From contig JABAKD010000002.1 in NCBI GenBank assembly GCA_012845835.1, positions 20,040,129 to 20,104,128 on the forward strand: a stretch of DNA of 64,000 nucleotides. Direction: 5' to 3'. The first letter of the stretch is position 1, and each line of letters starts with the position of its first letter. Positions 46,194-55,429 of the stretch are shown here, piece after piece. The stretch is from Undaria pinnatifida. Its lineage: Eukaryota > Sar > Phaeophyceae > Laminariales > Alariaceae. The position numbers and the translations under genes were made by a program. The notes under the pieces were generated by a model. The model was not told the origin of the DNA. It was given only the letters and a program-made list of their open reading frames with translations, and did not search any database.

Positions 46194-48341
46194 TCACCAG
46201 TGCCGGGGGCGAGAGGCCGCGTACGCCGTTTCCTCCGCGGCGGCCTTGATTTTGCCGAGAGCACCCTTAACCTTGGCGAGACCTTGGTCGGCGACTTTCC
46301 TAAAGGCCGCGGCACCCTTTTCGAACAGGTCACCGCCGCTGTTGCTACCGCCATCACCGTTGTTGTTGTGGTTGTGGTTGATGTTGTTGTTGCTGCTGCG
46401 CCCCCTGGGAGATTCCCGAGTATCGTTCCCGTTGTTGATGTCGTTGGGGTTGTAGTGGTCGTCGCATCCTATCACCTGGGGTTGAAATGAGGAGTGGTTG
46501 TTGTAGTTGTTGTAGTTGTTGTAGTTGTAGTTGTAGTTGTAGTTGTAGTTGTTGTAGTTGTAGTTGTAGTTGTAGTAGTTGTTGTAGTTGCAGTTGTTGT
46601 TGTTGTTGTTGTTGCTGTTGTTGTTGTTGTGCTCACGTCAAGTCATCAAGATGATGTAGCCGACAATCACAAACAAGAAAGGCTCCGATAAATCCGGAGT
46701 GGAAGAACACCTCAGGAAAATACAACCAGCAACATATTACACACTTGAATTGTTATTTCCGTCGTGTTTTTCTTCTTTCTTATTCTTGTTTTATTTTTCC
46801 CTTGCAAGAAGTCTGGCGTGCTGGCTAGTTTATGTGTCTCCCTCGTGCTCATTGTGGACGGCGATGCATGGCCAAACCACCTTGCTGTATTCGCGATGTG
46901 TATATTTGTCTTGTATTTTGTGAGCACAGAGCTCGTCTCTCTAGGAGGCATATCGGCACGGGCACTTGTTGTGCTGGATGTAAGTGGGTCGAAATACCAG
47001 TTCAATGTGAAGAATATACACAAATACGCCAAGTACGAAACTGAAGCAAATCGTACGCCCCACACAAAACGGTGAAAACAGAAACCAGGGCACGTCCGTA
47101 TCAGACACATACGGGGAGTAGCAAGTGGGGGGTGGTCGGGTGGGGCGATGGCGGTGGGGCGCAGGAGTGGGGGAGATAAAACTTCGCTTATCCGCTCCCA
47201 TGCGTAAAAAAGTGGAAATAAGTAACACACGCGTACATTAGGCGGCACTTCAAGTTCAAAAATCGCAACAACAAAAAAGCCAACTCTCTGGAACGCCATC
47301 CATCCCCAAACAGCAATCAACAAACAACGCACACAAACACAACTACCGAACTACAAGCTACCAATCGGCGACGAACCTCAACCCACGCCCCGTGCGCTGC
47401 CCGGCACCTGCACCAAGCACAAAAACAAGCCATCACATCCCCTCACCTTGCACCAGACTTGAGACGCCTTCGATCTCACGGAGATCCACACCAGCTTCCA
47501 CTCCAATACCCCCCCCTCCCCGGGGCAGCCGAACGCCCCCCATGCGCAACTCCTAGCGGCGGGGTGCATCGGAGACTCCCCCTGAGACACCACCAGGTTT
47601 CCGTTCGGGAGGACCACGGCGTGGAACGAGTTCTGCTTGAACCACCCCACGTGCTGTTTAGAAGAGAGAGGGCACGTCATGGGTAGGGTAAAAAATTGGC
47701 AGCTTCAGCGTCAACTCCAGCTTCAACTTTTGACAACAGCTAGTAATACAGTTAACTAAACAACTTTCAACTGCTATAACAACGACCACAAAAAAAACAA
47801 TAACGACGGCACTCTACGATGACGATGGCAAGTGTATCATCATGACCACAATCACCACCACCACCACCACCACCACCATCACGATCACCACGCCACCACC
47901 AATGACACCAATACCAACACCACCACCATCACGATCACCACGCCACCACCAATGACACCAATACCAACACCACCACCATCACGATCACCACACCACCACC
48001 AATGACACCAATACCAACACCACCCGCAACCGCACACCCCCACCACCACTACCACCACCACCGCCGCCGCCACCTCTTGCCAATGTGCTAGTACGCAACG
48101 AGCGGAGTGCCCCGGAGGCCAATCAGCGCTGACGAGATCATTATCGGACTCCACAATGCGTGTTTTGTTCTCAAGAATGAAAGACAATGCTGGGCGGCTT
48201 CAGGCACGCGACTAATAATGACGATACCGATTATGCTGCTGATGATAATGATGATGATGATGACGATGGCGACGATGACGATGATGATGATGACGATGGT
48301 GACATCGATGATGATAACGTTGATGATGACGATGAGATGAA

Positions 48342-48375
<34 letters not shown>

Positions 48376-54700: not shown

Positions 54701-55429
54701 TTGCGCCAAATTCCATGTCACGGATCGAAAGGTCACGATTGTCTCCTGTCTCCCTCTACTCACGAACATAGCGCTGTTACTACAGAAATAATATCAAATA
54801 CTCCTAACATAAAAGTATACAAATAAAAAAAAAATCCGCGGCGTCAACAGCTTTGGCGGGGGATACACGAAAAAAATACCCCTTCGCCCCCCCCCCGCCC
54901 AACTGCAGTCCGCCTCACGAGCGGCTCTCAGTAGGATGGAGTTCGCGCTTCATGGGAGTCGCCGAAGACCTCACGGCGCTTCGCGCGTGGTGCACCCAAC
55001 GTCTGCCTGGTCAGCGAAGACCCGACGTGCCCTGTCCCGGCATTGTAGCGATACGAGGATCTATGATCTTACGGACTACGGCCATTCATGATACGATAAT
55101 TACCCCCCCCCCCCCCCCCCGCCGAGGCGTTATGGTCATACGACTACGGCTATGCATGAAATGAGTACACCCCCCTCCCCCCAAATGTCCCCCTTCCCCA
55201 CCATAAAAACTCTCCCTCCTAGCCCCTTTTCTTCCTTTCCCCCGAGTTTCGAGCATAAGTACGTCCTGACCTGAGTGTTGTCAGGGTTCTTGTCGGGGTG
55301 CCATTTTCTCGCGAGCTTTCGATACGCTGCCTTAACATCCAAACCCTCCGCGTCCGGCTGCAACTCCAGCACGGCGTAGAGGTCTCTCTGTGCTACCTGT
55401 CGGCACAGTAATCCAATTCGTGTGGACAT
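46194..55429 (-). CDS. J-domain protein fused to bulb-type (B-lectin) repeats
   Basis: Eight exons join in phase with GT-AG introns: 55429-55271, 54257-53853, 52895-52652, 51445-51242, 50144-50011, 49025-48894, 47653-47447 and 46475-46194 (stop), giving 588 residues. Residues 16-84 are a J-domain ([24 protein letters not shown] with the HPD that activates Hsp70, then [14 protein letters not shown]). A Gly-rich region (95-180) runs into DPMELFE-AFFGGG, typical of DNAJB-like proteins. A Gln-rich stretch (about 206-257) follows. Exons 5-7 match B-lectin repeats: [41 protein letters not shown], and [21 protein letters not shown]. Only the first is close to QxDxNxVxY, so mannose binding may be partial. 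The C-terminus is Asn-rich, then Ala/Lys-rich. No signal peptide precedes the J-domain, so the start could be in an upstream exon. The exon 7-8 junction is least certain. Confidence 0.8.
46494..46640. repeat. GTT/GTA trinucleotide array in J/lectin intron 7
   Basis: Mixed TTGTAGTTG units with TTGTTGTTG fill about 145 bases directly upstream (minus sense) of exon 8, so the sense strand there is CAA/CTA-rich. Confidence 0.92.
46770..47000 (-). repeat. Dispersed repeat family 2 in J/lectin intron 7
   Basis: Read on the minus strand, CACTTACATCCAGCACAACA, GTGCCCGTGCCG, TAGAGAGACGAGCTCTGTG and TTTGGCCATGCATCG match 2497-2725 in order, including the A-rich tail. It is in the same orientation as the host gene. 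Confidence 0.75.
47840..48015. repeat. 58-bp tandem repeat in J/lectin intron 6
   Basis: The unit CACCATCACGATCACCACGC, then CACCACCAATGACACCAATA and CCAACAC repeats three times almost perfectly within a longer CAC-rich tract. Confidence 0.9.
48220..48760. repeat. GATGAT/GATGAC array in J/lectin intron 6
   Basis: It is a long trinucleotide-based array in two blocks split at 48533-48624 by unique sequence. Open frames in it (Asp/Met-rich or Ser-rich) are artefacts. Confidence 0.93.
49045..49800. repeat. ACAGTCCCGCCGACAGTTAC minisatellite in J/lectin intron 5
   Basis: About 750 bp of diverged units of roughly 25-28 bp are built on CAGTCCCGCCGACAG and TTACGACAAA or TACAACAA. The array begins about 20 bp from exon 6 and fills most of the intron. 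Confidence 0.92.
50890..51050 (+). repeat. Dispersed repeat family 1, second two-block copy, in J/lectin intron 4
   Basis: AAAGCTTTGAGCTCACCACA, CCCCATATTTTCATACC, TTGTATTCGCAAAATTACAT and ACTTGCAAAGATCATCTATC follow the order of 972-1131. It ends in a poly(A) run, as a retroposed element would. Confidence 0.8.
51460..51880. repeat. GTT/GGT array in J/lectin intron 3
   Basis: GGTGGTGGTG and GTTGGTGTTGATG units, including four TTCGTATTGGCG units near 51775-51810, fill about 420 bases next to exon 4. Confidence 0.9.
52479..52594 (+). repeat. Exon-edge repeat family, copy 3 (J/lectin intron 3, antisense)
   Basis: ACCAAAAGTTGGAGGTGTCT, GGCGCTCCGTCTCAAAAGGG and CAACAAATGAGTACTC plus poly(C) match copies 28637-28763 and 30165-30279. 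Its poly(C) end lies 57 bases from exon 3 (52652), but it is antisense to the host gene, so here it flanks a 5' splice site. Confidence 0.85.
53357..53410 (-). other. Possible cryptic 54-bp exon in J/lectin intron 2
   Basis: An 18-codon open stretch ([18 protein letters not shown]) lies between a TTTCAG acceptor and a GTGAGG donor, with phases that would fit between exons 2 and 3. Skipping it gives the conventional DPMELFE-AFFGGG junction, so it is left out of the main gene model. Confidence 0.25.
54960..55165 (+). repeat. Dispersed repeat family 3 plus tail copy, J/lectin intron 1
   Basis: GACCTCACGGCGCTTCGCGC, GACCCGACGTGC, GATACGAGGATCTATGATC and ACTACGGCCATTCATGAT match 43336-43460. A C homopolymer then separates a second partial tail (GGTCATACGACTACGGCTAT). 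Confidence 0.75.

Follow-up and report, generated by a model that had tools for sequence, protein, structure and literature searches.

A putative J-domain protein with a divergent bulb-lectin domain in the position of the client-binding domain

The locus at positions 46194-55429 of the window (the whole 64,000-nucleotide stretch of DNA that was analysed) raises the question of whether a J-domain and a bulb-lectin-like domain are encoded together in one gene and, if so, what task such a protein would perform. The initial annotation joined eight minus-strand exons in phase into a single chain of 588 residues. When the model was rebuilt from the sequence, the joined frame was confirmed over this span with no internal stop, but its length is 589 residues plus the stop codon, distributed as follows.

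55271-55429, minus strand: exon 1, residues 1-53; in-frame ATG (the first after a stop) and first half of the J-domain with the HPD motif.
53853-54257, minus strand: exon 2; residues 54-82 are the second half of the J-domain, residues 83-188 a Gly-rich region (39% G, 9% F).
52652-52895, minus strand: exon 3, residues 189-270; a stretch of 10 residues (letters not shown), a Gln-rich linker (38% Q) and an acidic end.
51242-51445, minus strand: exon 4, residues 270-338; of no known family, with a codon score matched by 0.7% of stop-free intron stretches.
50011-50147, minus strand: exon 5, residues 338-383; start of the B-lectin domain (DNVLR) and degenerate site 1, ESDCNFVVF.
48894-49025, minus strand: exon 6, residues 384-427; middle of the B-lectin domain and degenerate site 2, QDNGMLVVI.
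47447-47653, minus strand: exon 7, residues 428-496; third lectin repeat (by eye) with degenerate site 3, LPNGNLVVS, followed by an extension.
46194-46475, minus strand: exon 8, residues 497-589; Asn-rich stretch, Lys/Ala-rich tail (possibly helical) and stop.

The seven introns are all GT-AG and measure 957-1240 nt. Introns 3 and 4, which link the J-domain and lectin halves, are 1206 and 1094 nt long, inside the range of the other five, and end in AAG and GAG, respectively, the acceptor being CAG in the remaining five. Upstream of the modelled ATG the frame is open for 8 codons only. At the opposite end, the Lys/Ala-rich tail of exon 8 shows hydrophobic moments of 0.21-0.54 in 18-residue windows. 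No second copy of the gene was seen in the window, the best tblastn match outside the exons having an E value of 1.9. Positions 49279-49797, inside intron 5, hold an array of repeats of about 25/50 nt, and long simple repeats also occur in introns 3, 6, and 7.

The identity of the N-terminal half is clear. A search of the whole protein against Pfam places DnaJ (PF00226) at residues 16-79 with an E value of 1.6e-22 and 79.8 bits, against a cut-off of 27.8, and the HPD motif is present at residue 44, so that the J-domain with intact HPD described initially is borne out and the protein belongs to the J-domain (Hsp40) proteins. J-domains are expected to engage Hsp70. Among the best 60 of 66 matches in the PDB, the closest to the J half are human DNAJB8, B2, and B6. 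NCBIfam returned 13 families, every match falling over the J-domain end and below the family's own cut-off. Phage records gave 22 matches, none spanning 80% of the query, and the 8 matches listed cover residues 10-80 only. The Gly-rich and Gln-rich linkers of the earlier reading are likewise found, at residues 83-188 and in exon 3, where the linker has 38% Q, 2% S, and 1% T. Beyond the J-domain, homologue searches with exons 3, 4, and 8 found none. A PDB search with exons 3-4, leaving out the Q-rich stretch, matched one antibody chain (E 0.64) and no DNAJB protein, and a second one with the 38 residues spanning the join of exons 2 and 3 gave 0 matches.

The C-terminal half is more distant from known families. 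Both DnaJ and B_lectin had been expected on the joined product, and PF00226 appears above its cut-off, but PF01453 (B_lectin) falls below its curated one: in the whole protein it matches residues 363-423 with an E value of 0.001, and against the lectin part alone it reaches 2.4e-5 and 25.2 bits, under the curated cut-off of 32.4, which makes this part a divergent relative of the family. None of five shuffled sequences matched PF01453, one of them matching BACON_2 at 0.071. In the PDB, the lectin half has 30 distinct matching sequences at E<=10, and the 10 of these at E<=0.001 are all, as we take it from their names or from recall, GNA-type lectins. The top whole-sequence match (1dlp, 2e-6) is the sum of two weak stretches (0.048 and 0.96); neoculin gives a single stretch with an E value of 3.5e-5 over residues 4-103 of the lectin part. 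Moreover, the DNVLR of exon 5 aligns with the N-terminal start (DNVL) of known lectins. Taken as sequence comparisons, these results support that the lectin part is a real but divergent B-lectin relative. As for the "B-lectin repeats" of the initial annotation, the bulb-lectin relationship holds, but the region would rather be about one domain with three internal repeats discerned by eye, which Pfam covers in part and among which only the pair 2-3 is more similar than expected by chance (a score reached by 2 of 500 shuffles, as compared with 401 of 500 for repeats 1 and 2 and 111 of 500 for repeats 1 and 3).

If both halves belong to one protein, a sugar-directed function is the first to consider. 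The sugar motif of mannose-binding B-lectins is QxDxNxVxY. None of the three candidate sites, which were picked by eye, carries it intact: ESDCNFVVF retains D, N, and V, and QDNGMLVVI and LPNGNLVVS keep two of the five motif residues each. A scan of all 9-mers of the protein likewise found none that keeps more than three of the five. By this motif the protein would not be a mannose-binding B-lectin, and the glycan-guided Hsp70 cofactor proposed at first becomes doubtful because no candidate site is intact. Also, judged by crude hydropathy only, the modelled start shows no hydrophobic leader. For this reason the suggested work in glycoprotein folding or at the cell wall would be unlikely for the modelled form, and an upstream exon may carry a leader. 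The lectin domain could still bind glycans, of the mannose type or another, which might be storage glycans or belong to nucleocytoplasmic glycoproteins, as its lectin relationship is recognisable and site 1 keeps three motif residues; nonetheless, with no complete motif at the three candidate sites and no leader-like N terminus at the modelled start, we consider such binding by a single-gene product improbable.

Whether the two halves belong to one gene is less straightforward. The in-phase joins, on which the initial annotation relied, are weak evidence: in a control that drew 3000 pairs of open blocks 700-1300 nt apart at random from the same window, 1910 (64%) could also be joined in phase, 1441 of them with a CAG or TAG acceptor, and phase agreement was rejected as proof of one gene on this account. 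An argument in favour comes from exon 5, in which DNVLR precedes the first in-frame ATG and an in-frame TGA lies just upstream; a full lectin start therefore requires a phase-1 exon further upstream, a phase that exon 4 provides. In the joined frame, exon 4 has a coding-like score of 0.307; of 2301 overlapping intron stretches free of stops, 0.7% match this value. This test was trained on a small set (exons 1, 2, 5, 6, and 7; 95% point of the null, 0.064) and is noisy, as the left-out exons scored from -0.175 to 0.088, with three of the five under that point.

The locus might instead hold two neighbouring genes, one for a J-domain protein (exons 1-3 or 1-4) and one for a small lectin-like protein starting in exon 4 or 5. 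Such a start would be available at the in-frame ATG of exon 4 (51341, MASNPF) or at either of two in-frame ATGs in exon 5, and the non-CAG acceptors of introns 3 and 4, together with the frequency of chance phase agreement and the AATAAA/ATTAAA signals in intron 4 (50796, 50816, and 50834), would fit this arrangement. However, the part of exon 4 ahead of the 51341 ATG scores as coding in the same noisy test (0.234, a value that 1.5% of null stretches match), the DNVLR that aligns to the known lectin start would be lost if translation began in exon 5, and the gaps between exons 3 and 5 are intron-sized. The poly(A)-like signals were discarded as evidence for a gene end, because introns 2 and 7 also hold AATAAA-like signals and the roughly 700 nt past the stop hold none. 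A scan for an alternative first exon of the lectin part (ATG-started, phase-matched, seven donor pentamers, at least 30 nt) gave 0 in introns 3 and 4. As control introns, 5 and 6 also gave 0 and intron 2 gave 2, so that with two of the three controls empty the scan carries little weight. Two of the supports for one gene are thus weakened, one by the control introns and the other by the left-out exons, which, with the two ATGs in exon 5, makes it a little less probable. Even so, from the sequence features considered here, one gene is the favoured model and we hold it to be fairly probable, the evidence not being decisive; a pair of adjacent genes appears rather unlikely.

Moreover, the locus could be a decaying or unexpressed gene, or exons could have been wrongly chosen around a genuine J-domain gene. 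The lack of homologues for exons 3, 4, and 8 and the simple repeats in exons 2 and 3 and in introns 3, 5, 6, and 7 would agree with this. Nonetheless, the eight exons are free of frame-breaking stops, their introns are GT-AG, and among stop-free intron stretches 0 to 0.7% reach the codon score of exon 3, 4, or 8 (exons 3 and 8 being compositionally biased), which leaves decay or a wrong choice of exons as very improbable.

Returning to a single gene, its product can be compared with the known classes of J-domain proteins. According to passages of PMC12799103, class B proteins combine a J-domain with a G/F region and lack a zinc finger, and the class B' type additionally lacks CTD1/2 and the dimerisation domain; the metazoan B'(ST) group is placed there at the base of metazoans, and the source of its client-binding domain is left unresolved, being called likely chimeric, with fusion, heavy rearrangement or de novo origin named. 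In the protein encoded here, neither a zinc finger nor a CTD family is among the five Pfam families at E<=1, a search that a divergent CTD could escape, which places it outside class A; with a J-domain, an adjacent Gly/Phe-rich region (residues 83-188) and no zinc-finger or CTD match at that threshold, it shows these features of class B'. It shares with DNAJB2, B6, and B8, of the B'(ST) group, the N-terminal J-domain with HPD, the Phe-containing Gly-rich linker and the lack of a zinc-finger or CTD match, as well as a different C-terminal domain, here presumably beta-rich. In contrast, its linker is Gln-rich where that of B'(ST) is Ser/Thr-rich, the domain that follows is lectin-derived where B'(ST) proteins have a beta-D domain, and exons 3-4 match no DNAJB protein when the Q-rich stretch is left out, so that it would fall outside B'(ST). 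Since that group arose at the metazoan base, according to the same passages of PMC12799103, the protein would be a parallel case. On the lectin side, the resemblance to GNA-type lectins (PF01453) runs from DNVL through the first two repeats into the third, as aligned with neoculin; unlike them, it stays below the Pfam cut-off, has no intact sugar motif, is joined to a J-domain and shows no leader at the modelled start.

Overall, the protein looks like a J-domain protein of class B' whose C-terminal domain derives from a lectin. Four features can be read from the DNA itself: an eight-exon frame without internal stops, a J-domain, a relationship to lectins and a broken sugar motif. From them we infer a single transcript, together with the location, fold and client binding of its product, and the reading that we find somewhat more probable than its alternatives taken together is that of one gene for a soluble, B'-type J-domain protein, in which a divergent B-lectin domain replaces the usual client-binding domain. 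From the N terminus, the layout would comprise an Hsp70-stimulating J-domain, a Gly-rich (G/F-type) and a Gln-rich linker, a B-lectin domain of the beta-prism II fold and the Lys/Ala-rich tail. In this arrangement, the lectin-derived domain would hold a client or dock the co-chaperone itself, and the J-domain would pass the client on to an Hsp70 of the cytosol or nucleus. As the sugar sites have decayed, the grip would probably be a protein-protein contact, with the lectin fold reused for binding a polypeptide or a partner.

More tentatively, and with a probability that we place on the low side, this lineage may have independently built a B'-type co-chaperone from a J-domain and a lectin fold, the sugar-binding beta-prism having turned into a client-binding domain. 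If true, the chimeric B' design, with its unsettled source in metazoans, would have arisen a second time, in a way that can be traced. A J-domain protein with a C-terminal domain traceable to a lectin fold would show such a fusion directly, and the protein would make testable whether a sugar-binding fold can turn into an Hsp70 client binder.

Among the papers listed by literature searches, none reports a J-domain and a bulb-type lectin in one protein. In the passages of PMC11734081, lists for plant NLRs include DnaJ as well as bulb-type lectin domains, the latter in a list for Glycine max, with no pairing in the same protein seen there; those of PMC1192801 and PMC3986615 name J-domain proteins and lectin proteins separately. 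PMC6362431 covers 38 genomes of plants and algae in a survey of lectin architectures, and the article text, supplements aside, contains neither "DnaJ" nor "brown algae". When the lectin part was used to look for relatives, viral contigs gave 16 pattern matches and so did the bacterial and archaeal genomes, with 0 confirmed in either collection.

Elsewhere in the window, scans for tRNAs and for Rfam families each returned 0. At 59269-59925, plus strand, there is a first exon of a possible membrane-anchored glycosyltransferase, whose AFLIMAHG stretch presumably resembles Core-2/I-branching enzymes; Pfam gave only a weak UstYa match (0.048), which is no confirmation. Open frames at 38253-41887, plus strand, resemble by eye pieces of a retroelement. 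Another such element, of LINE-like type, has its frames at 17025-19587 on the minus strand, with a reverse transcriptase match (PF00078, 9.7e-15) in the first 200 residues of the frame and an endonuclease-like frame, recognised by eye, upstream.
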